Assembly: GCA_029961685.1 (NCBI GenBank)
Contig: JARWKL010000011.1
Span: forward strand, 7,380,501-7,444,500
Source: Aristolochia californica
Lineage: Eukaryota; Streptophyta; Magnoliopsida; Piperales; Aristolochiaceae
Length of the DNA: 64,000 bases
Reading direction: 5' to 3'
Shown here: piece after piece, positions 23,696-64,000 of the stretch
How the letters are laid out: each line of letters begins with the position of its first letter
Numbering within the stretch: the stretch's first letter is position 1
Notes under the pieces: generated by a model
What the model saw: the letters and a program-made list of their open reading frames with translations, nothing else
Told to the model about the DNA's origin: nothing
Database searches by the model: none
Program-made: the position numbers and the translations under genes

Positions 23696-23880
23696 CCTGT
23701 TTGAAAAATCCGAACTTCCTATAAAACTTTTTTTTTTGCTTTCTTGTCTTTCTTCATCTTTCCGACCGTGTAATACTTAGCTACAGACTAAAGTGGGCAT
23801 CTGCATCAGCGCACCCTCAGTTCCCTTTTTACTATCCATCGGTTCTCTCCGTCTTCAGCCCTCTGCAAAATTCACAAAAC

Positions 23881-24489
23881 ATGATTCGACGTTTATCGGA
23901 CGAAGATTCTATGGGTAGTGAGGCTCCCTGTTCGTATCCACCAGGCAATCGCATCTCCCACCAAAGGTCGTCGACGGCGACTAACTTCGACTACTCCATG
24001 GTAATCACCATTATCGTTCTACTCACCGCGCTTTTCTTCATGGCTTTTTTCTCCGTGTATATCCGCCGCTTTGCTGACCAGAACGCCATCGACATCGCCG
24101 ACCGCCACCGCCGCATCCTCCTCCGGGATCACACCCTCTACTCCTCAGCACCATCGACTTCATTCTCCATGCCCCATGGCGGCATCGGTCCCGAGGTCGT
24201 CCGCGCCCTCCCGGTTTTCGCCTTCAACGCCCAGCAGTCCTTTGACGAGTGCGCCGTCTGCCTCGCCGAGTTCGAGCCCCAGGAAAAGCTCAAGATGATT
24301 CCTGCATGTGGGCATTACTTCCATCCCCATTGCATCGATAGGTGGCTCTCCGCGCGGTGCTCCTGTCCACTCTGCCGCTCGACGAAGCTGTTTCTACCCT
24401 TGCCGAAGGCTTCGGCGGAGCTTCGTTTGGATGTGATCGATGAAATGCCGCTGAGGGAATTGGGGGATGGCGGCAGAGAGTGCGGATGA
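23881..24489 (+). CDS. ATL-type RING-H2 finger E3 ubiquitin ligase
   Basis: This is an intact single-exon gene of 202 codons, typical of the plant ATL family of membrane-anchored E3 ligases that pass ubiquitin from E2 enzymes to targets, often in stress or defence responses. A hydrophobic segment (about residues 39-61, MVITIIVLLTALFF...) would anchor it. A GLD-like region (GIGPEVVRALPVFAF, 101-115) precedes the RING. The eight zinc ligands have exact RING-H2 spacing: C124, C127, C143, H145, H148, C151, C162, C165, with Trp155 and Pro163 of the E2-binding face present. The main ATG follows a CT-rich leader and a possible TATA box at 23497. GC content is far higher than in the surrounding DNA. 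The C-terminus after the RING is short (37 aa). The subfamily and target are unknown. Confidence 0.95.
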   Translation: MIRRLSDEDSMGSEAPCSYPPGNRISHQRSSTATNFDYSMVITIIVLLTALFFMAFFSVYIRRFADQNAIDIADRHRRILLRDHTLYSSAPSTSFSMPHGGIGPEVVRALPVFAFNAQQSFDECAVCLAEFEPQEKLKMIPACGHYFHPHCIDRWLSARCSCPLCRSTKLFLPLPKASAELRLDVIDEMPLRELGDGGRECG

Positions 24490-25356: not shown

Positions 25357-26750
25357 AGGGGGGTTAGTCAACAAACTGGAAATTTGATCTTCATCTTCGA
25401 AATGGGTATCAGTGTAGACAAGTTCATGTTCGAAATCTTCGAAATAGGGTGTTAGTGTGGACAAGTTCATCTTCATCTTCGAAATTTAAAACCATTTATT
25501 TTATTAATTAAAAAATAAGTTAATTAAACCAAGTGTTTGAGTTAACAATATTTTAATTACCACTATTAAATCACTAATACAATAGAGTAAATAAAAAATA
25601 AATATGATTAATGAATAAAAAATTATTATATTAATAACATAAGATAGATTTTTTACACGGTATTAATTAATAATATATTTTCACAAAATTAAAAGTAATT
25701 AATTAATAAAATACATATTTTAATTATATTTTATTTACCAGAGACTTAAACATGAAGTTTAATATAGTAATAAAATTGATATAGTGCTGGGTTGCGTCAG
25801 GCGCTGAACCGGCTCCACATTAATTTTTTCCTAACTTAGGAAAATCAAAATTTCCAACAATGTCTTCTTCCCACGGCGCCAAAAAACCAGAGATCACGAC
25901 GAACATAGAAAATCAATCCAAGCAGCTAATCAAGTTCCAATCGAATGTACGGAGTAGATCAATACGACTTGTCCTCAAACTCGAAAGTAGGGTCTGTATG
26001 CCGACGTCTCCACCTGTGCCCAAGTAGCATCCATGATAGCTATGTCCACCCTTTGGACGCTCAAAACTGGAGCTTATTTTATTTTATTTTGTTTTATTTT
26101 TAGTTGGCCCGATCTGAGTTGGACTGGGTTGACTCGGTTCAATAAGCCCGGTCAGGCGCGCGACGCAGCGTACTGTGCTGATTAAATTTTCCTAACTTAG
26201 GAAAATTTTAATCGGAAGCCTCTTCCTCCTTCTGCAGAAATTTCGCCGGCGGAGTCTCCTGCTTCTCCGGTGGCGAATCGCAGCCCATTGGGGCTTCGCC
26301 GTGTGAAGAGTTTCCGAGACAGAGGGCTCTCAGAATCCTATTAAGCTTTGTTTCTCAGCCCCTCGGAATAGAGAACCCTTGCGGAAATTTCGCCGACGGA
26401 GTCTCCTGCTTCTCCGATGGCGAATCGCAGTCCATTGGGGCTTTGCCGCTTGGAGAGTTTCCAAGACAGAGGGTGGGAGAGAGGGAGGAAAAAAAAGAAA
26501 CGAGGACGCACGAGAGAGGGGGTGCGAGGAGAGAGGGGAAAAAAAATAGGAGCCCACGCGCTTCCTTCATCTCAAAGAAGATCAAATATGACCTTCTTTG
26601 AGATGAAGAATTTTAAACCATGGAGATGAAACACCGCTTCATCCCCTGCATCCAGATGAAATGTCATCTGCGCTCCACTAACGACTTTACCTGTTGAAGG
26701 GCGTCATGCGGTTGAAGATCATCTCAGACTTCAAGTTGACTAACCCCCCC
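25357..26750 (-). mobile_element. Non-autonomous PIF/Harbinger element (1.4 kb)
   Basis: Terminal inverted repeats: left AGGGGGGTTAGTCAAC, right GTTGACTAACCCCCCC, flanked on both sides by TAA (25354-25356 and 26751-26753), the 3-bp target typical of PIF/Harbinger. The left 450 bp is the reverse complement of 53640-54075 of the larger Harbinger element (same GATCTTCATCTTCGAAAT words and A/T-rich block). The right end matches the start of that element at 49720 (TTGAAG...GAGATGATCTT), so this is an internally altered relative in the opposite orientation. No transposase remains. The interior holds two copies of the palindromic motif CCTAACTTAGG found in LTR elements, a tandem repeat (26237-26472) and a 13-bp-arm hairpin near 26570-26607. 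Confidence 0.88.
26237..26472 (+). repeat. Direct repeat of about 90 bp in the Harbinger derivative
   Basis: GAAATTTCGCCGGCGGAGTC at 26237 recurs as GAAATTTCGCCGACGGAGTC at 26384, and both continue through TGGCGAATCGCAG and GAGTTTCC. The offset is 147 bp. The G/C-rich, exon-like composition suggests captured gene leader sequence, but no protein family was recognised. Confidence 0.8.
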
Positions 26751-31003: not shown

Positions 31004-33111
31004 TGTTGAAGAGAAAATATAAATGAGTCTTACATGACTCTCACAATAAGAAATCTTGTAGAGCCAAAATTATTATGGAAAGAGGTCTCACAGAAGAGTT
31101 TATGTTTAAAGGTGTTTTAGTTATGTTAGTCTTCTATTTGTGTTGATTTATTTAATTATGCTAGGACTTATCTTTAAGTGTTAGAGTTTGGGTGTAATTG
31201 GGATAAGGGTAGTTTAATTGTAATTGGATTCTACTACTTTCCTCTATTATAAATAGGGGTTCATATACTCTGATTACATCAAGTTTATGAAGTACTTCTC
31301 TTTTATATAAATTCAACATGGCATCAGAGTAGATTCTGTGAGTTGATTTGGTCAACCCAAAAAGTTACTGTGATTCTTTTATGATCTACATCTCTAGCAG
31401 TGTAGGTTTGTATCTATCTTTTTTTTTTTCTCTTTTCAGTCCCTATACCCATTGTTTGCTACTGTTTCCACCTCTATACTGAGTTTTTAATATTGCATAT
31501 TATATATTGATGGAGTTTTATTATGAGAATCAACTTCTTCTCTATTTTGTTTACTACTGCCTCACTATTCTATTTCCAGGAGTTTCTGGTTCATCGTTGA
31601 TGGGAGTTACTGATTATCTCGCTGGATTATTTCCTCCATGGAGAAGAGAGGTTTATCGCTCCGTTCGGAAGTGCCATTGAAGAAGAAACTTTGTTCTGGA
31701 AACTTGATCTTGATCTTACTACAATTTTTTTGGAAACTCCTCTGATTGCCAACTTTGGTTCATTGTTGTGTGGACGTGTCTGTTACAATCTATTGTTGTG
31801 TGTTTTATTTCTGGAAGTCTTCCAAAAAGTCTTCCATATTGATCATATTTGATACCCAATGATCCAACCTAGCCTTATCTGCTAACATCTGATTGGCATC
31901 TGCTCTCATCTGAGCTAGCACAGAATCTGCTCTCGTATTCTTATTGCGGATGGTTTGATTTATTTCAGAAAGTTTCCTTTGTTGTTGCTTCTCTGAGAAT
32001 CTCTGGTTCGGTTGTTGTCTCTCTACTGGTTCGACCGAGTTAATCTACCGGATCTTCTATTTTTGGAAGTTGTTGATCACAACCACTTGCTGGTTTCAGA
32101 AATTCCTCTCGTCATCTTGTTGGAGTTTCGTTGTTCGTTGTTATCTCTAGTTCATAAGTGATATGCTCTGTGTTGTTCCGCTATCCTCGGTAATCTGGTA
32201 ATCACTAGCGATGCTTCGGGAAGACGAATACATCTATCTACCGGTGATTTGTTTTAGGCGCTATTGATTTTCCTTTTCAAAAATATTTGCCTGAGGCGGA
32301 TCCGCAACGATCTCTTCCTATGGTTTGTTTTTTGTTCTGCTTTGTTCAAAAGAAAGGAAGACGACTTGCTATCGCGGGGAGGAAGACGACTGCTGATTTA
32401 ATTTTTCCTAAGTTAGAAAAAATTAAACCAGTGCCGTTGGATGACTCTGCTAAGTCCTTTTTCTGTCTCGGCTCATTGGATTATTTCCTCTACCAAGAAC
32501 TCTGTTTTCGCCGAGTTATTTGACCTTATTGGTTCTCACCGATAAACTTCTGTAAACTTGCTTTGTTACTCGATATCCAACCAACTGTTTATAATCCTTC
32601 GCTCACTGCTGCCTCTGCCAAATCGTTACTGAGCTATCTCTGCCAAAAATCACAGTCCCGTTGTCGTTGTTGGAGAAGACGACACTTTTGGAGTTTTTGA
32701 ATCTCTTCCGACGTGTCGACAATAGGAGTTTGATCTTGCTGGTGCACCGCCGTACTATTTGGAAACCAAACAAGAAGAAATTTAGCTCGAGGGGGAGTGT
32801 TGAAGAGCAAATATGAAGGAGTCTTACATGACTCTCAGAATAAGAAGTCTTATAAAGCCAAAATTATTATGGAAGGAGGTCTCACATAAGATTTTTTTTG
32901 TTTAAAGGTATTTTGGTTATGTTAGTCTTCTATTTATTTTGAGTTATTTAATTATGCTAGGACTTATTAAGTGTTAGAGTTTGGATGTAATTGAGACACT
33001 GGTAGTTTAATTATAATTAGACTCTACTACTTTCCTCTATTAGAAATAGGGGTTCAAGTACTTTGATTATATTGAGTTAATGAAATATTTCTCTTTTTTA
33101 TAAGTTCAACA
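31004..33111 (+). mobile_element. Non-autonomous LTR element C2
   Basis: LTRs at 31004-31318 (315 bp) and 32798-33111 (314 bp) start TGTTGAAGAGMAAATAT and end TTCAACA. The target duplication GCACT is perfect (30999-31003 and 33112-33116). The primer site TGGCATCAGAG follows at 31319 and the purine tract CTCGAGGGGGAG ends at 32797. The 1.48-kb internal region has no retroviral coding capacity. It contains TTTTTCCTAAGTTAGAAAAA near 32400, a motif shared with A2 and the Harbinger derivative. It belongs to the same family as C1. Confidence 0.93.
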
Positions 33112-40733: not shown

Positions 40734-43700
40734 TGTTGAAACTTAAGATTCCATGATGTATATCACAATAGAAGAGAATTAAGGGGTAAGAAGAAAAAGA
40801 AGAAGAGTTGTGGAGAGAGGGTTTTAGAAGGAGAAGAGGAAGAGTGACAAATTTGGAAAAAAAAGGAGGCAAAATAGGGTAATGGACTTATCCAAACCCT
40901 CCCCCTTAAGTTGTATTTATAGTTATCAAAAGTACTAATATTACATCAATACCTTTCACCCTAGTAAGAGTGAATAAGAGACATAAATCATAAACTAATT
41001 ACATCAATACCATCTTTATGAGATGACTCTTTATTTACCATCATGCCACCACTGTGTGGGCTTGTGGGCATTTTCCTTGGTATGTGGGCTTGAGCCCATC
41101 TTTCACACACTTGGACGTGTGGGTTTGGGCCCATCTTCCAACACTCCCCCTCAAGCTGGGGGTAAGAGAACATCATGAATACCCAGCTTGCTGCAAATGG
41201 TGTATAGGATCTTCTCATATAAAGTGGCAATTCACCATATCTTCCAACACTCCCCCTCAAACTGGTGATCTCTTTGTTCTTTTCCAAGAAACCCAGGTGG
41301 CATAATATAAGAGAGAGTAAAATCACTCCTAGCCGTAAGACATCACTCCATACTCCAGTCAAATGGTCATAGTCAAAAATACTTTCCGCTCAATTTCACA
41401 TGCAAAAAAGTAGCCCTACTGTGGGGCACAAAGTTTACCCATAGCTTAAAAAACACCTCATGCGTGAATAATAGACTTGACTCACACTGGATGTTGAGCA
41501 CACTCATATCCTCTATAGGTAATGGGTCTACAAGCATTGCTCAAAAGTGTAGTAATAAACTCCTCCATCATGGTCTCCCAACACAAGACACCGACTCTCA
41601 AATGGTAGGAGTCAAACTGCCAAATATGGGGGTAATGGGGAATCACTGGAAGATAATATGTTGGGGTCACCATGTGCTTTCTTCTTCATTAAAATAACCA
41701 ATGTTGACAACGATCAACAACTAAAAAGTTCATCCTCAATAATAATATCTCAGTCAAAGAGACATAATAGCAGTAGCGGTAATGAGGCAATGCCCAAATA
41801 ACACATACCAAATAGGCAGTTATATAGCACCGGATAACCAATAGGTAGTAAAAATCTTTTTTTTTTTTTTTTAATGAGTAAAAGTCTTTAAGAGCAATAA
41901 GGACACATAAGATAATCTATAGCAAGTCCATCCTTGAATAAGGAAGCTATGCACCAAGTAATAAGTTGAGGATAATCCAAGGTAATAATCAAGTCGGAGT
42001 CAAACCGGTGGCAGATAGTAGCTTTGACAGTGAGTAAGTAAATCAAGTCGAGTCATAGATTGCCAATAATAAGTTGAACCAAGTGTTGTTAGATAATCAA
42101 TAAATCAAACAATCTCCAATGTGCTCATCCTTCATACTTCTCCTTATATTCTCCCCCTCAAGCTGGGAGATAATGTCAATGATCCCAACTTGAAGTCAAC
42201 AAATATTTTGTAAGCTCAAGTGTTAATCCACCTCTTGTATGATCAAGGAAAAGAAGACTAGTATCAACAACTTCACTAGCTCAAATATTGTAAACCATGT
42301 AACTCAAGCTAAGCCAAATATTTCAATATTTTCTTGCCTGAATTTTTTAAGCAATGATACAAATCAAATTCTTTGTAATCTTTCAAAATACCAACAAAAT
42401 CTCACAAAATACATGGCTAGAAAAATCTTCTAAGTAAGGTAGTTTCCTCCTTCAATTGGTGCCAACTTAGCAATCAAAGAAGACATATTTCCTTGCCTTT
42501 TTTTCTCTCTTGAAATCTTTAGGCAAGGCAATCTTTGACAAATAAATCAAGGAAAGTTTCTGAAAATAAGATGATCTTCTAAAGATTCTTTCCAGATATT
42601 GTTAGTTAACAAGCAAAAACTCTCCAATTGTAGATCATGAGATATTTTCCTGATATTATTGATTAATAACAGCAACTCAAAAAGTGAAGCAAAAGATTCG
42701 GCTTAAATCCGGATTTTCGCATGCAATAGTATACCAACATGACCTTTGATTCTTCAATGTAAATATCTCTTTAAATATAGATCAGATTGATGAAATTTTC
42801 CCCTTCTGAAACTAGACTTAAATATCTTTCAACCAAGTATAACTTCTCTTCATAAAATATACTTCTTTTGAGATAAATAATCTGATAGATTTCGAACTCT
42901 ATAATCTGGCCGAACAGAGTACTCTTTCTTCTTTGGTCAGCATGACCATTTGACTCTTCCGTGATTGATTTCTCCATCTATAAAACTCAGAATGAGAATT
43001 AGTTGAATAGGTAAGAAAATATATTTACAGATCTTTCTTTTGATATATAATTTTTCATATAAAGTCTCGTTCTTGATGGCATAAAACGGCTCAAAAGTTG
43101 AAGTTTTCAATTGTTGCATGAAACTTTTCTGCTATTTTACCTTTGCTGCTTTAGATGTCGATTTCTTTTTTTCTAGAAAAATCTGATTTTAACGACTCTT
43201 TTTGAGTTGGAAACTAGACTCAAATAGCTTTCCAACGCTATATAATTTTCTATGTGAAAAATACGGCAAGAGAGAAACATCCAATGAAATATAGACATTG
43301 AGAAATAAGACTTAAAGGAAAAAAGAGAAACTCCTCTTTTTTCTTTTTCTTTTTCATCTTCTTCTTCTTCCTCCCTTTCTTCTCCATCTTCTTCTCCTTT
43401 TACTTCTCATATAATTTTCCGCTCTGATAACATGTTGAAACTTAGGATTCTATGATGTATAATCACTATAAAAGAGGATTAATGAGTGAGAAGAAGAAAA
43501 AGAGTTGTGGAGAGAAAGTTTTAGGAGGAGAAGAAGAAGAGTGACGAATTTGGAGAAAAGAGGAGGAAGAATAGGATAATGGACTTATCCAAACCCTCCC
43601 CCTTAAGTTGTATTTATAGGTATCAAAAATACTAATATTACAAGAATACCCTTCACCCTAATATGAGTTAATAAGAGATATAAATCATAAACTAATTACA

Positions 43701-43845
43701 TTAGTGTCACTTTTTATTTACCATCATGCCACCATTGTGTGGACCTATGGGTCTTCTCCTTAGTTTGTGGGCTTGAGCCCATCTTCCACACACTTGGATG
43801 TGTGGGCCTTCGTTGGTCATGTGGGTTTGGGCCCATCTTCCAACA
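40734..43845 (-). mobile_element. Non-autonomous LTR element B2 nested in copia E
   Basis: LTRs at 40734-41143 (3', 410 bp) and 43433-43845 (5', 413 bp). In minus sense they start TGTTGGAAGATGGGCCCAAA and end like B1 (...TTTCAACA). The primer site (minus TGTTATCAGAGCGG) is at 43421-43432 and the purine tract (plus CTCCCCCTCAAGCTGGGG) at 41144-41161, with a second tract-plus-LTR-start copy about 110 bp further in. The internal 2.3 kb has no coding signal. The flanks GGTAT and AGTAC differ by two transitions, a decayed target duplication. The host copia phrase GEG... on the left continues as SVLFVLNFPINLLF on the right. Confidence 0.88.
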
Positions 43846-49883: not shown

Positions 49884-52524
49884 GGGGAATCGTCCGTCCT
49901 CCAACCAAAGACGACGCCGACGCCGACGGCAAAGACGATGCCGAAGAAGTCGAAGGTAAGGTTGTCGACGGCGGAAAACATTCCCAATCGAGTGAAAGAG
50001 GATGGAGATCCCAACCAAGTGGAGGAAGATGGTGACGGAGAATGGCACATGGCAAGAGGCCGGAATTCCGGGAAAAAAGAAAAACGAAAGGAAGAAGAAA
50101 TAGCGTGGGTCGTCGGAAATTCAGAAATCTCGCTGGAACTCAAACCAGGGAGAACCGAAAAGGTGATACGAATTACAGCGAAAAATGGAAATAAGCAATC
50201 TTTCATCTCAATACCGTTGGCCGCAGCCTTGGATTTCGCAGTTTGTCTCGTAGATGAAGAAATGTTGCAAGTTCCTCGGCTTCGAGAGATTAGAATCGGA
50301 GAGCTCTCTTTCTCCGTTTCGGTTTTTTGACAAAGAGGAACGAGGACGTTGAAAGTCGTCCAAAGCAGAGGTATGTTGATAATGGCCCGAGTGTACCTCC
50401 CCGAAAAATTTTGCACATCCTTCTGTTGGAAAGTTTTGAGAGAAAAACTACTAAGCTTCATCCCATCGAAATCGCCCTTGAGACCCCCATCCATTCATCC
50501 CGTCCCTCCCGAAAAAGACAACCTTCAGTTCCCCCCTCTCTCATCTCAGAAATCCATCCCACCTTCGAATATCTTGATTCCGTCAGGCCAGAAATCCCTC
50601 CCCCCAAAAACCAAAATATTGTCATACATTTGCCCTCTGACTTCTTCTCGACCGGATGTAAAGCTTTAAAATCAGCCCTCAAGGTGAAGACCAAGTCCGT
50701 CAAATGGACAAATGAGACCCTCGCGTACTGGTTTCGGGATAAAATCTACATCGACTACCTCCAGAAAATCTCCTGGTTGAGCCCTCGACAGTGGCTGGTC
50801 TTTCTTAACTCGTGGGAGGAGGTGAAGATAGCCCTCGACGAAAGCTTTTGGGAGGCCGAAACTGAGATAACGGTGTCGGAATGGGAGGAAACCCCCAGGA
50901 ATCTTCCCCTCAGACAATGGATATCCGTCAAGGGACTTCCAATAGAATTGTGGTTGAAGGAGGTCCTACGACGAGTATTCTGTGCTTTTGGAACCATCAT
51001 AAGATGGGACAACGACACGATGGAGAAAAAGAAATTGGACATCGCCAAGGCGTTCGTTACCCCAAACACGGGTTGGCCTGAATCTCTCTTCACGGAGTTA
51101 ATTTTTGGCGGCGATTTCGTATGGCTTGAGGTGTCTTTCAGAGCCATGGAGATCCTGCGACTGCCGGAGCTTCGCCGGACTCAAAGGAGACGAGCTACTC
51201 TGGAGGCCAACTCACCCCCAAACTGAGTCAACACGGTCTTTAACTCATCGGATTCAGGTGAGTCAACCTCTTTACCGAGTTCTGGATTGAACTCGGGCTC
51301 AAATTCAAAATCGTGGGGAAGTATTTCGAAACGAGATGACAGCTCGCTTTTCGAAATACAAAAGGTGTTTCAAATCCAGGGAATCTTAGACCCGAGTCCC
51401 GATGACTCCAGCAAGGGCCCGTCAACGATACATCTTGAAAAATACTCCCGGTGTACTCCAAGCGAGGGACTGCGTCTTCCCAAAAACTCCTGCGCAAGCC
51501 TCCAGACACCGATGAAGGCGACTAAAATAAACGAAGCACCCCTCCTCGAGGTGTCATCTGCCATCTCTAAATCAAAATCAAGGACTGACGGTGAAAATCG
51601 GGAGGACGAAGTCCACACATCTTCCGGTTCGTAGTGCAAAGAAGGGAGTCTCCAAAAAGACGATCTGAAGCCCCATCCAGGTACGATTTTCGAAAATCTG
51701 ACTCAGTCAATTTCAAAGGAGTTTTCTTCGAACAGTGCAGATAGACCGTCTACAGGAGCAACACCGAAGGGTGTTCACTTTTTTCAAGGCAGTTTTCAAA
51801 TTGTATAGCAGAAAATCCAAATACTGCTTCAGGAACCCCCCTCTCAACTTTCTCAAACCCCCACACCTCTACCCCTTGTACGCCTACCCCCATCTACTCG
51901 AGCCCAGAAATACTGCAAGCCACACTACCCTCCTCCTCTGCTTCCCTATCCCACGGCTCCAACTCCCAAGGAAACCACCCCTCAATTAGTGCAACCCTAC
52001 CTCTCCCCCAGAAAAGTCCTCTCGATCCCCCATCCTTTTCCTCAACCCGCCACTAGAATCTTCATTCTCGAGATCAGCACCGCTCACAACAAAATTCTAA
52101 TTATGATCTCGAGCATACACTCCAAAACATACAATCTAGCCAACCTAGCAAATTCACTACTCCCAAAACCATAAATGAAAACTGTCAAGTGACATCTCTC
52201 TTTTCGGATATCCCGGACACCACTGGATTGGGAATAACAGAGCCTGCTCACTTACCCCCTCAGCAAGAAACAGACACTAATGCCTCCAGAATTCCAACGC
52301 CGGCCAATCTCCACAATCAGGACAGCCCAGTTACTCCCCAAACCCCTCTCTCTCCTGGTAGACCTAGCCGTGTGGTCAAGGCACTCCAAGTGGAAAGGCA
52401 CAAATATGATGCGGAATCTTGGCAGCAAATGATGGATTTGGCCCATCTTATGGGAGCAATTTTTAGAGGCCCGTTACCTGGAGACAGAAATGCATCCGGA
52501 GTCATCAAGTATGGTAATAAATGA
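49884..52524 (+). pseudogene. LINE ORF1 (DUF4283-type), frameshifted
   Basis: Frames at 49824-50330, 50327-51226 and 52189-52524 read in series as a plant L1-type ORF1. The middle one contains the DUF4283-like core: TLAYWFRDKIYIDYLQKISW, WLVFLNSWEEVKIALDESFW, LPLRQWISVKGLPIELW and IIRWDNDTM. ORF1 proteins bind LINE RNA. The last part ends YGNK and its TGA overlaps the ORF2 ATG (ATGA at 52521-52524), a common bicistronic layout. The parts between 51226 and 52189 are interrupted by stops. The composition is richer in G+C than neighbouring DNA. Confidence 0.75.
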
Positions 52525-53016
52525 TCGTGCTTTCCTGGAATGTTCGAGGAATTGGGGCTTTCCGGAAGAGGGGATTGATCTCTAATTTTATTTCGCAATT
52601 CAAGCCTTCCATTGCGATCCTCCAAGAAACAAAGTGTCAAGAGATGTCCGATGCTATCGTCAAAGAGCTTTGGTCCAATTCTTCTATTAAGTGGGTGGTT
52701 GTCAATGCTGAGGGTAACTCGGGAGGTATCCTAGTCGCTTGGGACTCGACGCTCTTGACATCCTTGAAAGTATTTGAAGGCCGTTTCTCTTTGGATCTGT
52801 AGTTTAGAGACCTCTCCTTGGGCAAAATCTGGTGTGTAGGGGGTATATATGGTCTGACCAGATACCGTGAGCGTGGCTTATTTTGGGAAGAACTCAGTAA
52901 TCTCTGCCAGTCCTGGAGACTTCCATGGCTCTTCGCTGGTGATTTCAATGCCATTCGATACTGCGGTGAGAAGAAACCGCCGGCTAATCGCATTTCTGCT
53001 TCTATGCGTGGTTTCA
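52521..53016 (+). pseudogene. LINE ORF2, endonuclease part only
   Basis: ATG 52521 opens MIVLSWNVRGIGAFRKRGLI, then AILQETKCQ, GNSGGILVAWD, a stop at 52801, IWCVGGIYG and LFAGDFNAIRYCGEKKP. NVRG, QETK and GDFN are the conserved blocks of the apurinic-type endonuclease that nicks target DNA for LINE insertion. The sequence stops after SASMRGF near 53016, before the end of the endonuclease domain; the reverse transcriptase is absent. Downstream, the sequence switches to a Harbinger transposase. Confidence 0.88.
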
Positions 53017-53019
53017 AAT

Positions 53020-53499
53020 CTTCCGGGATTTTTGGCTCCATATCGAGGAACCCGATATCATCTGCAAGAATTTGGAGATAATATTCCTAGAAATGAAAAA
53101 GAATTATTCAACCGAAGACATTCATCTTTACGAAATATTATTGAGCGAACTTTTGGTGCTTTAAAAGCTTGATTTCAAATGTTAAAAGGCACTCCTCCAT
53201 TTTCTTTTAAGATCCAGGTGAAAATTGTACATGCTTGTTGCATATTGCACAATTATATACGTGCAGAAGATTATGATGATATATTTGAAGATGAAGATGA
53301 TGATTCGGGTGGCGAGCTCGGTGGAGGAGGTGATGCGGTCCAATTAGGTGCAATGGATGATACAGATAGCGATGATTGCGATGATCTTGAGGATGTGGGT
53401 AGCCAAGTAACAAGCATTCGAAAGCAGAGTGCATTAGAATCCACAAGAGCCGCACAATTTCGAGATGCCATATCGACTTCCATGTGGAACGATAAATGA
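53020..53499 (+). pseudogene. PIF/Harbinger transposase C-terminal fragment
   Basis: The plus strand reads FLAPYRGTRYHLQEFG, RNEKELFNRRHSSLRNIIER, TFGALKA (stop), FQMLKGTPPFSFKIQVKIV and ACCILHNYIRAEDYDD, then an acidic tail to 53499. This is the end of the DDE_4-type nuclease; the glutamate in NIIERTFG matches the third catalytic residue. The single stop (TGA at 53170) sits where Arg is usual (KxRF), consistent with a CGA-to-TGA change. The catalytic Asp residues and the N-terminus are missing. The second frame after the stop is open to TGA 53497. Confidence 0.88.
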
Positions 53500-54088
53500 T
53501 GGTTTACTCTTATTACTTTTGAACATGCGTCATTTATATGTACTAAACTTGTAAATTGTTGATTTTAATATTAAAGGCACGAACTCGTTATTTGAATAAT
53601 TTTTTTTAGGTTATTTTCAAAGTTGTATATGTATTTATTTATTATTTTTTTATTTTTATTACTATATTAAACTTCATATTTAAGTCTCTAGTAAATAAAA
53701 TATAATTAAAGTATGCATTTGATTAATTAATTACTTTTAATTTTGTCAAAATATATTATTAATTAATACCATGCAAATCTATCTTATGTTATTAATATAA
53801 TACTTTTTATTCATTAATCATAATTTTTTTTATTTACTCTATTGTATTAGTGATTTAATAGTGGTAATTAAAATATTATTAACTCAAGCACTTGGTTTAA
53901 TTAACTTATTTTTATAATTAACAAAATCAATGGTTTTAAATTTCGAAGATGAAGATGAAGTTGTCCACACTAACACCCTATTTCGAAAATTTTGAAGATG
54001 AAATTGTCCACACTAACACCCATTTCGAAGATGAAGATGAAGATCAAATTTCCAGTTTGTTGACTAACCCCCCCCCCCCCCCCCCACC
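53500..54088 (+). other. Harbinger 3' region and terminal repeat
   Basis: This is A/T-rich noncoding sequence with GAAGATGAAGATGAAG words close to the terminus and the end GACTAACC plus about 19 C. The block 53640-54075 is shared, reversed, with 25357-25790. The C-run length is unlikely to be exact. Confidence 0.75.
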
Positions 54089-55690: not shown

Positions 55691-55929
55691 GAAGAAGAAG
55701 AAGGAAGAAAGCAAGAAGGAGAAGAAGCTTGTCTAGGAGTATGGAGGCTAGACATGAGGAGAAAGCTAGGAGAGAAAGAGAGCTCCACCTTAGGGCATAC
55801 AAGAGCTCCTCTCCTTCATCTTATTTATAATAAAAACCTTGACATAATTACAACTCTGTCCTTCAGCAATAATTAATAAGAAAAACTAGATAACTAAAGC
55901 TGAATACATGACTACTTGTATCACTTATT

Positions 55930-56560
55930 TATGTAGATCATATTATATTATCTGGAAGTAATAAAAAAGGAATCCAACAGGTGAAAAAACATCTCACTAA
56001 ACATTTTCAGACTTAAAGAGTTAGGGTCACTAAAGTATTTTATGGGCATTGAGGTTGCGAGGAGTGAAGTAGAAATTGTATTAACTCAATAGAAATATGT
56101 GATAGATATGCTCCAAGAGTAGGGATTACCAGGGCAAAGCGTTACAAAAAGCCCTACAAAATTTGGTCATAACCTCCATGAAGATGATAGTAGATTGTGT
56201 ATCAGAAGGCTGGTAGGTAAGCTTATTTATGGTACTATCACATGTCCAAATATATCATAGTCAGCCAATTCATGGAATGTCCCCATAAAATTCATTAGAA
56301 AGCAACCCAGAGGATATTACGATACTTGAAGGGAGCACCTGAGGCATACTCAAACGCGAATTATGCTGGGTCAAAATTGGATAGAAAATCTACTGCTAGA
56401 TATTGTGTTTTTGTTGGCAAAAACTTGGTAGCTGGGAGAGTAGAAAACAAAATGCGGTAGCTCACTCAAGTACAGAAGCTCAATACCGAGGAATGGCGCA
56501 TACAATAAGTGAACTTATGTGAGTCAGATCAGTTTTACTAGAAATGAATTTTATTACTAT
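55930..56560 (+). mobile_element. Ty1/copia RT-RNase H fragment I
   Basis: Degenerate plus frames read LGSLKYFMGIEVARSEVE, KYVIDMLQE, LVGKLIYGTITCPN, SQFMECPHK and ATQRILRYLKGAPE, then the RNase H phrases NYAGSKLDRKSTARYCVFVG and AHTISEL-like AHTISELM. Stops are frequent. Both ends are missing; it abuts the LTR starting at about 56582. Confidence 0.8.
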
Positions 56561-56581
56561 AGAAACCATGAATATGCACTA

Positions 56582-56980
56582 TGTTATGCATACAATAACA
56601 TTATTATTTTAATTATTTTTTCTTTAATTTACTTTATTTATTTCAGTTTTAGGCCATAGGAGTATTTTTGGAATATTTTATGTATAGGGGTATTTTTGTA
56701 ATATTTTATCTTAAACCCTAACAAGGTGAACCCTATTTAAGGGGTAAGAGTAATGAGAAAAGAGAAGCATTGATTTAAGGTTAATTTTAGGTTAAACAGG
56801 CTTGGAGCTCTCCTTGACGAGTTCTAGGGTTTTCAAGCTTCTCTTTGGCTTGATCTTCGTCTTCCTCTCCATATCTTCCTACAATTCCACATAGTATCCC
56901 TACAATAACCTGTGGCAGATCCAGGACCGTAACAACGAATCCTTGTGGCAGATCTGGGACCGTAACAACTGGTATCAGAG
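56582..56980 (+). mobile_element. 5' LTR and primer site of LTR element J
   Basis: An LTR-like block starts TGTTATGCATACAATAAC at 56582 and ends ...CCGTAACAAC next to the primer site TGGTATCAGAG at 56970-56980. It contains a CCCTATTTAAGGGG promoter-like stretch (about 56730) and two copies of TGTGGCAGATC(C/T)(A/G)GGACCGT near 56911 and 56945. The 3' LTR was not found before 64000. The start is inferred from the TG dinucleotide and from where the copia fragment ends. Confidence 0.55.
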
Positions 56981-56990
56981 TAGGAACACA

Positions 56991-57305
56991 ATGGGCTATT
57001 CATCTTCCCCAGAAGAATGGATTGTTTTGGACAAGGTACACAATTCAATAGAAAAACTATTGGAAAAATTATGCAAAGAACCGGGAGAAATATGCGCAGG
57101 GTATGCATCTTCCACAGGGTATCAATCTTCCATTGGAAGTTCTACAAGGGAGCCATGCGTTGCCGCGGAGAAGGTCATACAACCACACACGGCTGCGGAG
57201 AAGGTCATACGACCACGCGCGGCCGCGGAGAAGGTCATACGACCTAAATTCTCCAAACACAAAAAATCCACAGAACGAGAGGCAAGAGAACACTCAAACA
57301 AATAG
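56991..57305 (+). CDS. Hypothetical ORF of element J with a 10-residue repeat
   Basis: ATG 56991, just after the primer site, opens 104 codons (MGYSSSPEEWIVLDKVHNSI..., LEKLCKEPGEICAGY...). No family was recognised. The second half contains three copies of a 30-bp, 10-residue unit, AAEKVI(Q/R)P plus two variable residues, at 57160-57244. It ends in a basic KFSKHKKSTEREAREHSNK tail. Position would suit a gag or leader peptide, but no gag motif is visible. Stops follow before the hAT insertion at 57409. Confidence 0.4.
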   Translation: MGYSSSPEEWIVLDKVHNSIEKLLEKLCKEPGEICAGYASSTGYQSSIGSSTREPCVAAEKVIQPHTAAEKVIRPRAAAEKVIRPKFSKHKKSTEREAREHSNK

Positions 57306-57815
57306 AAGAAATATGAAATTCGAGAGTTCTTTGTCTCGGAAAAGCTCCCCAAACTTCCGAAATCTGACGGCGGGGACACCGATTTTTTGAAATCGGAAGG
57401 GTATTCAGTAGGGGTGGCATCGAGCTGAGCCGAGCCCGAACCTGCTTATGTTCGAGCCGAGCTTGATTTAAATATTTCGAGCCGAGCCTCGTCTCAAGCC
57501 TAAAATTGTTATCGAGCTCGAGGCCAACGAGTTTGAGTCGAGCTTCGAGCTGAGCTCGAGCCTCAACATACATTTAAAACTTTTCAAAAAATATATATCG
57601 AATAAAATGTATATAAAATTATGCATACATTTTACATAAAATTGGGCATGACCTCTACATAAAATTGGGTATAACCTATATATATTATACATGTATAAGA
57701 TTGGGCATAACCTCTACTTAAAATTGAGCATAATCTATGTATATAATACTTGTATAAAATTCGGCATGACCTCTACTTAATATTGGGCATAATCAATATA
57801 CATAATACCTGCATA

Positions 57816-57990
57816 AACACTCCATAAAAACTCCATAAAATTGTCTATATATTCCATAAACACTCCATGAAATTGTTTATACACTCCATAAAATAGTCTA
57901 AACACTCCATGAAATTGTTTATACACTCCATAAAATAGTCTAAACACTCCATGAAATTGTTTATACACTCCATAAAATAGTCTAACCACT
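57816..57990 (+). repeat. 42-bp tandem repeats in the hAT element
   Basis: CACTCCATGAAATTGTTTAT starts at 57861, 57903 and 57945, alternating with CACTCCATAAAATAGTCTAA, so the 42-bp unit is itself two related 21-bp halves. A degenerate half precedes it from 57816. Just upstream (57600-57800) a looser repeat of about 60-70 bp with 'aaaattgggcata' words occurs. Confidence 0.88.
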
Positions 57991-58097
57991 CCATACACTG
58001 CATAACATTATAAATAAACTCCATACAATAATCAAACACAACAAAATTAAATAAAATATCACTATAAATTTACAATCACCCAAATAAAAACTATAAA

Positions 58098-59370
58098 TCC
58101 TTTAAATAAAATCATATTACTATTAGATACTTACTAGAAAATTACAAGAAATATTTTAAATTTTTCTTAGGAAAGTTAAATGGACCTCTTATTGCCTTTT
58201 CTAAGGAAATAAATAAAAATTAATAATTAATCTAATATATTATTATACTTATCGATAAATTTTTAATCACATAAAATGTCAAACACAAAATTGTTATGAA
58301 AATTGTCTCATGCTCAAAGTATTATATCATCAACTGTCAAATACTTATTCAAAAATTTTCTATATGGTTTTCTAACCATCTTGGCAAGAAAATCTTACGT
58401 AGAAAATTATATGGATTTTTAAAAATAATTTATAATTAGAAAAATATTTTGAAAAAACATGAGGGACTAATGGTCCCTATATTTCTACTAAAAATGTCTT
58501 TTCAATATTTATTGAAAAAACCACTAATAGTCTCTAGAAACGTATTTCTACTAAAATATCTTTTCAATTTCTTTAAGAGCCATGAGGAAGGGACAGAGTT
58601 TTTTTTTTTTCCTTGTTTATGATCTCGCACGTAGGGCTGGCTTTGAATAAATTATATATAAAACTATGCATACATTTTTAAAAAGTATAATGATAGGGGA
58701 TTAAAATTTTAAAAAAGGATTAAAAATGCACTTATATTAATTTTATTTACTCCAATTGTTGTCTAGCTTGTTTTGTAATTTTTGAATCTGGCCACAATTT
58801 AATATGGCCTCCTTAGTGCCCTAGATGAAAATTTATATTCTAGGAAAAACTAAAAATATTTTTCTTATGATACATATTCCCAAAAAAACCTTTAAATAAA
58901 ATCTTATTACTATTAGTGACTTATTAGAAAATTACAAGAAATATTTTAAAATTTTCTTAGAAAAGTTAAATGGAACTTTTATTGCCTCTTCTAGGGAAAT
59001 AAATAAAAATTAATAATCAATCTAATATATTATTATACTTATCGATAAATTTTTAATTAAATAAAATATCAAACACAAAATTGCAATGAAAATTGCTTCA
59101 TGCTAAAAGTATTACAGCATCAACTGTTAAATACTTATTCAAAAATTTTCTATACAATTTTCTACCCCATCTTGGTACGAAAATCTTACTTAGAAAATTA
59201 TATGATTTTTAATAAAAAAATTCAATTAGAAAAATGTTCAAAAAAAACATGAGACACTAATAGTTTATAGAAACTTATTTCTATAAAATTTATTTTTAAT
59301 TTTTTTGAGAGCTATGAGGAAGAGTTTAAGGAATTTTTTTTTTTTTTTTTTTTTTTACTTTATGATCTCG
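58098..59370 (+). repeat. Direct duplication within the hAT element (offset 790 bp)
   Basis: The block 58098-about 58635 (TTTAAATAAAATCATATTAC..., ATTACAAGAAATATTTTAAA, TTATACTTATCGATAAAT) recurs at 58888-about 59370 with about 90% similarity by eye. It ends at a T-run followed by TTTATGATCTCG in both copies. The segment between, 58636-58887, is single copy. Confidence 0.88.
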
Positions 59371-59953
59371 AACATGTGAAATCATCTTCGCGCGGGGGAG
59401 GGGGGAGATTATTTCTGCCCTAATTTCTCCCCTGAACTTAGGTTCTGGTTTTCCGCCACGGAAGGAAGGAGGTTACGGCGCCGGGGAGGGCAGGAGGTTA
59501 CGGCGCCGGGGATGACAGCTGCGACGGAGGCGGTGGCGACGGCGATGGAAGCGGCAGTGACAGAAGCGGCAGCGACAGAAACAGAGGCGACGGCAAGGAG
59601 ATGAAGAAATCGAACGGACGGCCACAAAGGCGGCCGGCGAGCAGCTGCGACGGCAGTAGAGACGGCCGGCGAATAGCTGCGACGGCGGTAGAGGCGGCGA
59701 CAACAGCCGACAGGAGGGGCTCGGCGGTGATGAGGGGAGGAAAAAAATTTCCTCCCCTCGCTCTCAATCCCGCTCCCGATCCGGATACTGATCCGACTCA
59801 CCTCAAGCCGGCTCGCTAGCCGACAAACCGAACCTGGCTTTGATCGAGTTCGGCTCGTTAAGGTAAACGAGCCAATTTCGGTGCTCGAGCTCGATAGATA
59901 ACGAATCGAACCGAGCCGAGCTGACTCGGTTCAAAGCCACCCCTAGTATTCAG

Positions 59954-60689
59954 CACACCCTTCGTCGGAAAATCCAGAATGGGGTTCGGCATCAAATCCT
60001 TTGCCAATGGACGTCGTACGTCTTTCCGAACCGAAGAAGCAGGGAAATCCAAAGCCGAACAACGGGGAAGTGATACAACTCCGAACAGGGGAAATTCCAA
60101 AATCGTCGGCACTAGACGATTTGGGAGCGACCTCAATTCCGAAATTGGGTACAAGGGAAATCTCCGAGCAGGAACATCACGCGCAAAAAACCCGAGCAGG
60201 GCAATGGGTCCCAGAAATTCCAAACTCTAACCACTTCTGCTCATGGCAAGCAAATCTTCCGGCGACTGTTCCGACCAGGACATAAGCGGCGAAGGCCCAA
60301 AGGGCTGCTGTTCGCCACCGAAAACTGAGGAGGAGGCGCCGTCGGAAACAAGTCCGGTGGGATTTAACTTCTGGCCACCACCTCTCCGTCACAATCTCTC
60401 TCTCGGCAGTCCAGTGGGGCACCATCTTCAACGCAATTTTTAGGTCAAAACGAGTTTTTCAGGGCGTTGATGTGGCTCAAAGGGGCTGAGCAGCAGCAAC
60501 GCTGCTTGAAAATTCGAGACGAAGGATCTCTGTTTTGTGATGCAGAGAAACAATGCTCAATTGAGAGAATTTCGGATTGGGGGTATGCAGTTCGAGATGA
60601 AATTTTTCGGAGGATGTCGGGATCCATAAAAAAAAAAATTTGGGGACCTCTGAATTTTTTTTTTCTGGTGGCTATGTTTTGCTGTTGAT
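59954..60689 (+). other. Continuation of element J, no recognised gene
   Basis: After the hAT target duplication the sequence interrupted at 57408 resumes. It has above-average G+C and several short plus frames (for example MASKSSGDCSDQDISGEGPK at 60243), none with a family match. It leads without a visible break into the PABP-like fragment. Confidence 0.4.
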
Positions 60690-60944
60690 GAGCACAGTCA
60701 CTATGTGTGGGTTCGTTGCTCAATTGACACGGTGAGGCTGTTTAATTTTTCTATTAACGAGACCCCCAGCAGTGTGAATGTCTCGTATATGTTTGTGCTT
60801 AATGGGATGCTCTTGCATGATAAGCATGTTAAATTTGAGAGGGCAGCATTTGCTTCTCTAGCTGTTGAGGGGCTTAATTTTTTGGGTCCTATGTCTGTAG
60901 TCATGCGTGAAGGAGATGGGAATTCAAAATATTTTGGTTTTGTT
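60690..60944 (+). pseudogene. Poly(A)-binding protein-like fragment, before the TRIM insertion
   Basis: A plus frame reads DTVRLFNFS, LNGMLLHDKHV, then SVVMREGDGNSKYFGFV. LNGMLLxDKxV is characteristic of the end of PABP RRM2, and VVMREGDGxSKxFGFV matches RRM3 with its RNP1 (K-x-F-G-F-V). PABPs bind mRNA poly(A) tails in the cytoplasm. Parts between the two phrases are deleted. The frame is cut after FGFV by the TRIM array and continues as DFENAE at 61520. No introns are present. Confidence 0.72.
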
Positions 60945-61516
60945 TGTCAAAGTGGTTCCATCCACTCTTGTATGCGGTAGCTTTCCGCACCTAACAGATC
61001 GGTCTTTTGGGTGTATTGGCTAGCCGTTGTCATGGTATCCGAGCTGGGCACGCCATGTCCCGTGTTCGAATCCCGTGAGAAGCGGTCAAGAATGGGCGGG
61101 GTGGGTGTTAGAGTGGTTCCGTCCACTCTTGTATGCGGTAGCTTTCCGCACCTTACAGATCGGTCTTTTGGGTGTATTGGCTAGCCGTTGTCATGGTATT
61201 AGAGCTGGGCACTCCACATCCCGCGTTCGAATCCCATGAGAGGCGATCAAGAATGGGCGGGGTGGGTGTCAGAGTGGTTCCGTCCACTCTTGTAGGCAGT
61301 AGCTTTCCGCACGTAACAGATCGGTCTGTTGGGTGTATTGGCTAACCGCTATCATGGTATCAGAGCTGGGCACGCCACGTCCCGCGTTCGAATCCCGTGA
61401 GAGGCGGTCAAGAATGGGCGGGGAAGGTGTCAGAGTGGTTTCGTCCACTCTTGTATGCGGTAGCTTTCCGCACCTAACAGATCGATCCGTTGAGTTGTAT
61501 TGGCTAGCCGTTGTCA
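60945..61516 (+). mobile_element. Tandem array of a miniature LTR retrotransposon (TRIM)
   Basis: Four LTR copies start at 60945, 61106, 61267 and 61428 (88, 88, 88 and 89 bp; TGTTAGAGTGGTTCCGTCCA... GCCGTTGTCA), separated by three 73-bp internal regions. The period is exactly 161 bp. Each internal starts directly with a primer site (TGGTATCAGAGC or one-base variants) and ends in a purine tract (GGGCGGGGTGGG or similar). The target duplication TTGTT is perfect at 60940-60944 and 61517-61521. Removing array and duplication restores FGFV-DFENAE of the PABP fragment. Total 572 bp; a single LTR-internal-LTR unit would be 249 bp. Each internal also has GTTCGAATCCC, like a tRNA B box. Confidence 0.95.
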
Positions 61517-61990
61517 TTGTTGACTTTGAGAATGCAGAAGTATGTATTAGCTTTGTTTCTATTGCTAAGAATACATGCGTGGTGAATGAATACAGCAGCA
61601 GTATGGCTGTTTCGGGTAATTTTTACAGCCGTAACAGTTCATTTAAAAAAGTTGTGTTAATTTTTTTGGATGAATTGTATGATGCTCGACCATTGTTTGT
61701 CATAATTTTTCAACCTGGTGTGCCTTTTGGTGATGAACATTTGAAGAAACTATTTGGTGGGTGTGGAAACATAACATGCGCTGTACTAATGAGAGAAGGG
61801 GATGGAAAATCCAAATGTTTTGGATTTGTTACCTTTGAGAGTAGTGTTGTATATAATGATAAGAATGCATGCGTGTTAAATGATTATTGTATTCGAGTTG
61901 AACCTAATGTTGGGTATGCGGAGAAAGAGGAATCAGTGCTGCATGTTTCTGCTATTAGAAGTGCCTCAGTTGAGAATGCAGAAATGAGGT
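61517..61990 (+). pseudogene. Poly(A)-binding protein-like fragment, after the TRIM insertion
   Basis: The frame continues DFENAE and, after unrelated-looking sequence, reads FGDEHLKKLFGGCGNITCAV and LMREGDGKSKCFGFVTFE: again the RNP2-to-RNP1 part of PABP RRM3. It therefore repeats the piece found before the TRIM, so the PABP-derived material is internally duplicated. An open frame spans 61333-62007, but its first part is TRIM sequence. It then runs into the malate dehydrogenase fragment. Confidence 0.72.
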
Positions 61991-62390
61991 GCAGCTCAAC
62001 CAACTAGGAATTTCAGTGGACTTAAAGCAGCAACAAGTGTGAACAGTGAATCCGAGATGTCCTTCTTGGGAAAGGAGAGCAGTGCTGCACTTCAACATTC
62101 CATTGTTGTAAAATTGGCAAAACAAAATTATACATTTGACTATCATCTGCAGCCTCGAGCCTCAGGTTTCAAAGTGGCCATTCTAGGTGCTGCCGGTGGA
62201 ATTGGACAGCCCCTTGCCCTTCTGTTCAAAATGTCACCTTTGGTTTCAGCTCTCCATCTTTATGCTATTGCACATGTTAAAGGTGTTGCTGCTGATCTCA
62301 GCCACTGCAATACGCCGTCTGACATCCTTGATTTTACTGGTCCTGCTGAATTAGCAAACTCATTGAAAGGAGTGGATGCTGTGTTCATCC
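61991..62390 (+). pseudogene. NAD-dependent malate dehydrogenase fragment (plastid type)
   Basis: The plus frame reads [20 protein letters not shown] and GKESSAALQ (transit-peptide-like), then [64 protein letters not shown] and VFIP. This is the first third of an organellar NAD-MDH; the Rossmann GAAGGIGQP nucleotide-binding loop is intact. The [10 protein letters not shown] and DFTGP...ELAN wording fits the plastid isoform best. It breaks off before the catalytic Arg/His residues and passes without a stop into unrelated sequence. There are no introns. Confidence 0.88.
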
Positions 62391-62525
62391 CTTATGTGAG
62401 GAATGCCCAGAAGCATTCAGCAAGGGATATGGAATTAGAGGGACAGTTTGCTGACATGATATTCAGATTCTGCTCAGATTTTGGGAATGAAGCAACTGCT
62501 TCTAATGCAGCCAAGTACCAGAAAG
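62391..62525 (+). other. Linker of unknown origin in the mosaic
   Basis: The frame stays open from the MDH part: [20 protein letters not shown], then a stretch with [15 protein letters not shown]. No family was recognised; it may be a fifth captured fragment. Confidence 0.5.
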
Positions 62526-62690
62526 TTTCTGAACAGCTTCAGCCTCAAATGGAACAAGATTTTAATATTGGATCCCCAGTCAGCGCCAATATTATCCCAC
62601 ATGCTGTCTCATGGTTTATGGGAGCGGCTGTTCAGGGTGACGAGTTTGATGATATAGAAGGGGATGAGGATGTAGATGATGCAGATGTTG
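62526..62690 (+). pseudogene. NAP1 (nucleosome assembly protein 1) fragment
   Basis: In the same open frame: [40 protein letters not shown] and an acidic run [16 protein letters not shown]. The phrase Q-MEQD-IGS...[12 protein letters not shown] followed by an acidic tail is the signature of the C-terminal end of plant NAP1 histone chaperones. Only about 55 residues are present. The acidic tail merges into the pyrophosphatase phrase (ADLVGKVER). Confidence 0.82.
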
Positions 62691-63870
62691 ATGCTGATCT
62701 TGTTGGAAAAGTTGAGAGACACATTCCTGAGGTTGACCCAAGAAATCCTGCTGTGATTGCTGACATTGTTGGTGATAATGTTGGAGATATTGCTGGAATG
62801 GGCTCTGATCTTTTTGGCTCGTATGCTGAAGCTTCCTGTGCTGCCCTCGTTGTGGCATCAATCTTTTTTTTTTGGTATTAACCCTGAATTGACTGCAATA
62901 CTATATCCCCTCCTCATTAGTTCTTTGGGTATTGTCGTCTGTTTAATCACTACCCTCTTTGCTACTGATTTCTTTGAAATCAAAGCAGTGAAAGACATTG
63001 AACCTTCTTTGAAGAAGCAGCTCAACATTTCCACTGCTCTCATGTCTGTTGGTATTGCTATTGTTAGCTGGATTGGCCTGCCATGGTCCTTTACAATCTA
63101 TAATTTTGGAGCCCAGAAGGTTGTGAAGAACTGGGAGTTGTTCTTCTGTGTTGCTGTTAGTCTGTGGGCTGGACTAGTCATTGGGCTTGTAACTGAATAC
63201 TACACCAGTAATGGTTACAGCCCTGTGCAAGATGTTGCTGATTCCTGCAGGACAGGAGCTGCGACAAATGTGATCTTTGGGCTGGCTTTGGGATATAAGT
63301 CTGTTATTATTTCCATTTTTGCAATTACAGTCAGCATTTTTGTCAGTTTTAGTCTTGCTGCTATGTATGGTTTTGCAGTGGCTGCTCTTGGGATGCTGAG
63401 CACCATCACCACTGGGTTGGCAATTGATGCATATGGACCCATGAGTAACAATGCCGGAGGTATTGCTGAGATGGCGGGCATGAGCCACAGGATACATGAG
63501 AGAACCGACGCCCTTGTTGCTGCTGGAAACACTACTGCTGCTATTGGAAAGGGCTTTGCGATTGGTTCAGCCGCCTTGGTGTCTTTAGCTCTTTTTTATG
63601 CTTTTGTGAGCCGTGCAATTTCAACAGTGGATGTTTTGACACCTAAAGTCTTCATTGGGTTGACTGTGGGTGCAATGCTTCCATTCTGGTTTTCAGCCAT
63701 GACCATGAACAGTGTGGTAAGTGCTGCTGAATCTTCTCAATCCCAGGGGGCTGGTCATGATGTTGTGGCTGCCATGCGGGCAGAGTGTAGGCAGTGCCAT
63801 CCAGGACTGAGGGCAGGCAGAGATGCTGCTTAGGGCGATGTAGCGAGATTCGGCACGCATTCCTACATTT
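62690..63870 (+). pseudogene. Vacuolar H+-pyrophosphatase (type I) retro-fragment
   Basis: Reads [40 protein letters not shown] and [16 protein letters not shown]. After a frameshift in a T-run (about 62868-62876) it continues [46 protein letters not shown]-like [89 protein letters not shown] and [20 protein letters not shown]. This is about 330-370 of some 765 residues of plant V-PPase, a multi-span tonoplast pump driven by PPi. The metal site D-x3-D-x3-D is present as DIVGDNVGD. There are no introns, although V-PPase genes have several, so it derives from mRNA. Homology fades after 63720 (VRRQ...PGL-like trace to 63870). Confidence 0.95.
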
Positions 63871-64000
63871 GACCATAAAAAAAAAAAGGTTCTAGAGTGA
63901 ACGCTTCAGTTTTAGGCTTTCGGAGGGCAGACATAGCTATCGCTGATGTTAATTGGGAACAGGTGGAGACGTAGGCATACAGGCCCTACTTCCGAGCTTG
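63871..64000. other. Window end, unassigned
   Basis: A short A-run (63878-63888) follows the end of recognisable V-PPase homology. No LTR matching 56582 was found here. Confidence 0.4.

Follow-up and report, generated by a model that had tools for sequence, protein, structure and literature searches.

How do pieces of several host genes come to follow one another on one strand, without introns and in a shared reading frame, downstream of the long terminal repeat (LTR) of a retroelement? The question is raised by positions 60690–63870 of a 64,000-nucleotide stretch of Aristolochia californica DNA from contig JARWKL010000011.1 (hereafter the window, to which all coordinates refer). The original prediction described a mosaic of polyadenylate-binding protein (PABP), plastid NAD-dependent malate dehydrogenase (MDH), NAP1 and V-PPase pieces at this locus, and suggested that a retroelement had captured the corresponding mRNAs. 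Our analysis confirms that description in part, with corrections, and lends partial support to the interpretation. We favour the reading, to which we give a probability of roughly 0.55, that a non-autonomous LTR retroelement carries cDNA pieces of several host mRNAs gained by template switching, and that it belongs to a family with variable cargo. The division into an older, shared RNA-recognition motif (RRM) segment and a younger, variable cargo is a layer that the prediction had missed.

Host-gene pieces joined in one frame

Matches in PDB, Pfam and protein searches bear out the serial order of PABP-like RRM, MDH, NAP1 and V-PPase pieces on the plus strand. The best defined is the MDH piece (61981–62392), which comprises a partial transit peptide and the N-terminal NAD domain. 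It is identical to the A. californica plastid MDH P0023 at 117 of 129 residues (91%), with E = 9.4e-34 in a separate sequence search. Because some plant plastid MDH genes are intronless, the absence of introns from this piece says little. A protein search with the 297-amino-acid open frame scored 7,994 candidates and gave 6,863 matches; among the 120 listed, the best MDHs from outside Aristolochia reach 78% identity, all carry both MDH Pfam domains and none is a chimeric relative. One listed protein, P0117, with apparently wider query cover, proved to be an MDH with a weak alignment extension.

Substitutions in the MDH cargo are spread evenly over the transit part (4 of 53) and the mature part (8 of 76). 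An even spread is also seen in the Aristolochia paralogue P0024 (4 and 6), and the corresponding counts are uneven in P0043 (22 and 10) and P0053 (23 and 7). At three of the altered positions, the residue lost here is present in 120, 119 and 119 of the 120 listed MDHs; at two others, the new residue also occurs in other MDHs. Because the substitutions are even and (nearly) invariant residues have changed, the cargo seems not to be under constraint for enzyme function.

The MDH piece is followed by a stretch that the prediction had left as an unplaced linker. Its first 19–23 residues look like a second PABP piece (62393–62461, plus strand), corresponding to the segment after RRM3: although this piece has no PDB match, its alignment score was reached by 0 of 3,000 shuffles for P0143, 1 of 3,000 for P0144 and 5 of 3,000 for P0145, at identities of 10/19 to 12/23 (about 52%). 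The rest of the linker (62462–62530) stays unplaced, with a best PDB match of only E = 0.066, to designed proteins, and a weak NAP1-like AKYQK match (p = 0.05). An exact 10-bp repeat, TTGCTGACAT, is found where the second PABP-like piece ends (62448–62457) and again within V-PPase (62757–62766); it could indicate that templates were switched inside the linker.

Two further pieces complete the cargo. The NAP1 C terminus (62531–62680, right border approximate) was found by sequence search (E = 3.4e-6), by Pfam (E = 8.9e-6, under the cut-off) and by protein search (E = 7.1e-15); its two best matches are from A. californica, and 31 of 46 residues are identical to P0001 (67%). The middle of V-PPase (62681–63728, left border approximate) is identical to Vigna V-PPase in 53 of 57 and 239 of 288 columns (E = 1.8e-28 and E = 5.8e-148). 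It covers about 345 of 766 residues (approximately 45%) and contains no intron in about 1 kb; the description of a Boehmeria V-PPase gene gives eight exons and seven introns (PMC11332915). Behind it lies a 144-bp tail (63729–63872), of which 40 residues were searched; none of the PDB matches went below E = 0.5.

All four joins are in frame, the RRM–MDH join in phase 1 and the MDH–PABP–NAP1–V-PPase series in phase 2. This would happen by chance about once in 81 cases, but the frame is the reason that the stretch was noticed. The predicted uninterrupted frame (62039–62881) exists and is slightly longer (61988–62881), forming a hybrid open frame as in the maize element Bs1, with frame shifts inside the MDH and V-PPase pieces. 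The first MDH residues (61981) continue the RRM frame, from which MDH is then displaced by a small indel; V-PPase shares the open frame at its start and is interrupted by one frame shift, at a T10 run (62864–62873). These frames strengthen the suggestion that a fusion protein was once expressed, although the open frame had itself drawn attention to the locus. The residues EM at the boundary between RRM and MDH suit MDH and, in part, the sequence on the other side, and DV at the boundary between NAP1 and V-PPase suits both neighbours; either case is compatible with microhomology.

The finding of separate duplications around each piece had been named in advance as evidence against a common origin. 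For the four single pieces tested, no direct repeat of at least 7 bp flanks the two borders at a distance of up to about 25 bp (the longest is 6 bp), and no A-run of at least 7 occurs between the pieces. Of 44 direct-repeat families in 61900–63900, most of them imperfect, none among the 20 shown reads as a single-piece duplication.

A shared RRM segment with differing cargo

Upstream of the MDH piece, the stretch assigned to PABP RRMs is indeed PABP-like; it holds no clean copy, and consists instead of two degenerate RRM3-type copies on the plus strand, A (60798–61599) and B (61693–61980), the first of which is interrupted by a later insertion. The left part of copy A (60798–60944) resembles the end of PABP RRM2 joined to the RRM3 core, and matches P0145 at 42.9% over 77 columns (E = 6.4e-5). 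The right part (61522–61599), which begins DFENAEVCIS, matches P0146 of A. californica at 57.7% over 26 columns (E = 2.6e-4). The assignment of copy A comes from tblastn (E = 6.4e-5 for P0145 and 2e-4 for P0146). Copy B, by contrast with copy A, matches Pfam RRM_1 (E = 3.5e-7). In the region around it (61303–62004), the best solved structure is a polyadenylate-binding protein (6r5k, E = 3.7e-14) and the NCBIfam match is PABP (E = 3.8e-9). Copy B includes a tail common to P0146 and P0153, to which it is 52% alike over 107 columns and 56% alike over 75 columns, respectively (tblastn).

These two proteins emerged from a search with a joined query made from translations of the window, which returned 12 proteins at E values up to 10. 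In ten of these, Pfam recognizes RRM domains, and five of the ten bear the name polyadenylate-binding protein; we took all ten as PABPs. The other two are A. californica ‘uncharacterized proteins’, P0146 (432 amino acids) and P0153 (264 amino acids). The motif FENAEVC(I/R)S is common to copy A, P0146 and P0153, and is absent from the aligned PABPs P0145 and P0143. Also absent from these PABPs are LNDY, common to copy B and P0146, and SASVE, common to copy B and P0153. Beyond the shared part, P0153 continues into a stretch of 84 residues that resembles aspartate carbamoyltransferase (PDB E = 5.7e-16) and one of 74 residues that resembles TOM1 (a VHS piece, E = 4.4e-35), the two matches overlapping by 12 residues. 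P0146 has a weak match to HSP70 (Pfam E = 0.0075, under the cut-off; PDB E = 0.028), and contains stretches that we take to be HSP70-17-like. The block in the window and these two proteins are thus three chimaeras with one common RRM segment and different cargo.

From their sequences, the three look like members of an element family that combines an old common RRM segment with variable, younger cargo, and P0146 and P0153 would then derive from the same family as the block. The distinction between two ages arises because the RRM parts are only 52–56% alike between copies, whereas the MDH cargo is 91% identical to the host gene.

The RRM segment may have given rise to a functional RNA-binding protein. 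The RNP1 block is kept clearly better than its surroundings between copy B and P0153 (15/15 versus 25/46, p = 0.001), and marginally so between copy B and P0146 (13/16 versus 37/65, p = 0.09) and between P0146 and P0153 (12/15 versus 46/89, p = 0.05). Comparisons of copy B with PABPs give 15/16 versus 12/22 for P0145 (p = 0.01) and 14/16 versus 11/21 for P0143 (p = 0.04), and the control pair P0145–P0143 leans the same way (15/16 versus 480/629, p = 0.14). The pattern is suggestive only, and RNP1 is in any case well conserved in PABPs. A structure model of copy B does not support an intact RNA-binding fold (mean predicted local distance difference test score of 52.6; 15 of 101 residues at 70 or above; residues 56–101 below 50).

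The surrounding LTR element

The block is placed between two parts of a putative LTR element. A 5′ LTR of 386 bp with TGTTA...TAACA ends (56582–56967, plus strand) occurs as a single copy in the window. Two nucleotides after its TAACA end is the primer-binding site TGGTATCAGAGT (56970–56981), one mismatch away from TGGTATCAGAGC and presumably of the initiator-Met type; the LTR is therefore accompanied by the primer site expected of an LTR retrotransposon. Both features had been predicted, with slightly different bounds (56582–56980 together). The LTR element seems to have inserted into a degenerate Ty1-copia reverse transcriptase/RNase H remnant (55912–56581, plus strand), interrupting it at 56581. 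Two parts of the remnant match Pfam RVT_2 (55912–56013, E = 6.6e-5; 55985–56089, E = 0.037), both under the curated cut-off; four further pieces had no match in the Pfam search, and the RNase H-like part is our assumption from the translation.

Downstream of the primer site lies a leader region (56990–57400, plus strand) that we presume to be gag-like, the open reading frame of which (56895–57302) has only a sub-threshold IMUP match (E = 0.015). No domain above the Pfam cut-off was found in this or the other two 5′ internal frames (59947–60282 and 60368–60685). We call the element non-autonomous, a recognized state, because no gag or pol domain reached the cut-off in its three frames.

A relative lies at 26 kb. 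The internal stretch 60284–60356 (plus strand) resembles a doubled stretch on the minus strand at 26382–26451 and 26246–26301 (73–78% over 59–73 columns; E = 3e-8 to 6e-7 with a 6-kb subject, and 8e-7 against the whole window). On the other side of the block, 63872–64000 (plus strand) is homologous to 26104–25976 on the minus strand (129 columns, 73.6%, E = 1.4e-21 with a 6-kb subject), with a 98-bp core at 80.6% (E = 1.2e-18, whole window), and the relative continues with TTGAGGACAAGT beyond the homologous part. Because the 5′-internal match (26246–26301), which is short at 59–73 columns, and the 3′ stretch lie only 141 bp apart, the RRM and cargo block is absent from this relative. The stretch 25976–26451 can accordingly be described as a related element piece without RRM or cargo and with its own doubled internal stretch. 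No second copy of the cargo was found in the window.

Template switching and its alternatives

We propose that the element lineage would first have acquired part of a PABP mRNA, the RRM region; this part diverged afterwards and is common to the relatives. Reverse transcription would have taken place in particles that also held host mRNAs, and the reverse transcriptase would have switched templates several times. In one or more such rounds, the plastid MDH, second PABP, NAP1 and V-PPase pieces may have been joined behind the RRM part in one frame, while other members of the family may have captured other mRNAs: aspartate carbamoyltransferase with a TOM1-like piece and, probably, HSP70. The template-switching step, the LTR element as vehicle and the order of events are our inference.

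Template switching by a reverse transcriptase is favoured because the pieces lack introns, lie on one strand, are joined in frame and have no poly(A) or duplications between them, and because an old shared segment is combined with differing younger cargo. The idea of an RNA-templated mosaic is supported by the intronless V-PPase of about 1 kb, the four in-frame joins, the common strand, the lack of poly(A) and of duplications around the single pieces, and the position of the block between the 5′ LTR with its primer site and the 3′ element sequence. The LTR element is favoured as the vehicle because LTR, primer site and 3′ element sequence surround the block. Capture by a retroelement, as predicted, agrees with the upstream LTR and primer site; the LTR element is the probable vehicle, with a 15-bp repeat leaving room for a LINE-type insertion.

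Several observations weigh against our proposal. The window ends at 64000, ahead of any 3′ LTR, so that the whole element is not shown; within it, there is no 3′ LTR and no target duplication of the element, and the best other match to the 5′ LTR is 66 AT-rich columns (E = 4e-5). No reverse transcriptase or recognized gag domain is assignable to the element in its three frames, and copy A by itself (60654–60977) matches nothing in Pfam or PDB. Both P0146 and P0153 come from gene predictions and are known here as protein sequences. The divergence of NAP1 (31/46) and of the second PABP piece (10/19 to 12/23) exceeds that of MDH, and the cargo may therefore have been gained in more than one event. 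Finally, a perfect 15-bp direct repeat, CCAT followed by A11, brackets the RRM and cargo block on the plus strand (60624–60638 and 63873–63887), as an independent insertion would leave.

This repeat argues for a serious, if unlikely, rival: that the block is a separate chimeric retroposon, generated by the reverse transcriptase of a long interspersed nuclear element (LINE) that changed mRNA templates in the course of target-primed reverse transcription, and that its insertion into the LTR element created the 15-bp target duplication. The related piece at 26 kb without the block is also in its favour. However, no separate poly(A) tail is seen ahead of the right repeat, and the A-rich sequence preceding 63900 has an A-rich counterpart in the alignment with the 26-kb copy, so that it may be the element's own; that CCAT is shared by two of the four plus-strand A-runs of at least 10 is a post hoc observation. 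Less probable is an Aristolochia host gene family of chimeric RRM proteins, later carried by an element to which the LTR is incidental. The listing of P0146 and P0153 as host proteins is what such a family would require, but the alignment shares only the RRM segment and tail, the domains behind them differ, and residues (nearly) invariant in the 120 listed MDHs have been lost from the MDH cargo.

Capture of genomic or retrogene pieces at the DNA level, by a Helitron or a Pack-type element, seems very unlikely. Serial pieces on the same strand are typical of Helitrons, but V-PPase is intronless over approximately 1 kb, the terminal inverted repeats found belong to a hAT-like insertion (57409–59945) rather than to the block, and inspection by eye, the only search made for them, revealed no Helitron ends at the block borders. 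Hardly credible is a chance array of independent processed pseudogenes: although unequal divergence (MDH 91%, NAP1 67%, second PABP piece about 52%) is what separate insertions would produce, the single strand, the four in-frame joins, the lack of A-runs of at least 7 between pieces and the limit of 6 bp on repeats at single-piece borders speak against it. As an extension of the template-switching proposal, the family could have co-opted the PABP RRM as its own RNA-binding protein, drawing polyadenylated host mRNAs into its particles. We consider this very improbable; if true, it would describe an mRNA-harvesting element in which frequent template switching continually creates new in-frame host-gene fusions.

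Comparison with known systems

The closest likeness is to maize Bs1, described in a review as holding pieces of three genes (PMC13317346): like the block in the window, it is an LTR element with several host-gene pieces fused into a chimeric gene. Unlike Bs1 as presented there, the block draws on at least four source mRNAs, with PABP giving an old shared segment, and has related chimaeras with other cargo, whereas the LTR pair is not shown here. The gene-carrying LTR retrotransposons of maize likewise contain host-gene pieces inside LTR elements, and in a survey of 425 of them no element was found, under the conditions used there, to carry more than one gene (PMC2774510). For rice and sorghum, 672 and 1,343 captured genes are reported (PMC3726574), and we noticed no multi-gene count there. 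Abnormal template switching in Veju and BARE-2, as summarized in the review, likewise involves a switch between packaged RNAs; there, the partner is an unknown sequence or another element (PMC13317346), whereas here it would be several host mRNAs.

Our literature search, which covered few subscription papers, found no report of a capture family bearing a PABP RRM, and nothing related in the literature on PABP-type RRMs in retrotransposons. What is new here, judging from the aligned proteins, is that two A. californica proteins have the unusual RRM-derived segment in common with the block but then run on into host pieces of other kinds. If the family is real, the rate, template choice and join chemistry of reverse-transcriptase switching could be measured in a plant lineage, and new fusion genes would arise from such a family.

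Later insertions and other features

Two insertions within the element are later than the mosaic. A 2,537-bp element at 57409–59945, which we assign to the hAT superfamily on the assumption that its terminal inverted repeat TAGGGGTGGC and its 8-bp duplication GTATTCAG (57401–57408 and 59946–59953) are diagnostic, splits the leader region. It contains an internal near-duplication (58095–58515 and 58885–59308, 85.5%). The second, which interrupts RRM copy A, is a tandem array of very small terminal-repeat retrotransposons in miniature (TRIMs) on the plus strand (60945–61516), flanked by the 5-bp duplication TTGTT (60940–60944 and 61517–61521). Four LTRs of 88–89 bp alternate with three internal regions of 73 bp, each of which opens with the primer site TGGTATCAGAGC with at most one mismatch, so that the array shows the alternation, primer site and target duplication by which tandemly arrayed TRIMs are defined. 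Rfam and ARAGORN searches over the window returned nothing, and we interpret the repeats carrying TGGTATCAGAGC and GTTCGAATCC as units of a TRIM. The architecture (four LTRs, three internal regions and a short duplication) is the same as that described for tandemly arrayed TRIMs (PMC4717578), a likeness that concerns this later insertion and not the mosaic.

Elsewhere in the window, related short repeats cluster at 15556–15938, 17866–18248, 19720–20024, 31004–31318, 32798–33111 and 40734–43806. Within this cluster, a 383-bp stretch occurs twice at 94%, the first copy being followed by a perfect TGGTATCAGAGC at 15939; the cluster is perhaps another non-autonomous LTR family in tandem. An open frame at 23725–24486 reads like a RING-H2 (ATL-type) E3 ligase and is presumably a host gene, and 50294–53480 contains what we take to be LINE-like frames followed by the end of a PIF/Harbinger-like transposase. 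An inverted pair of AT-rich repeats of about 420 bp (25358–25775 and 53654–54073), 92% alike, is possibly a miniature inverted-repeat transposable element.

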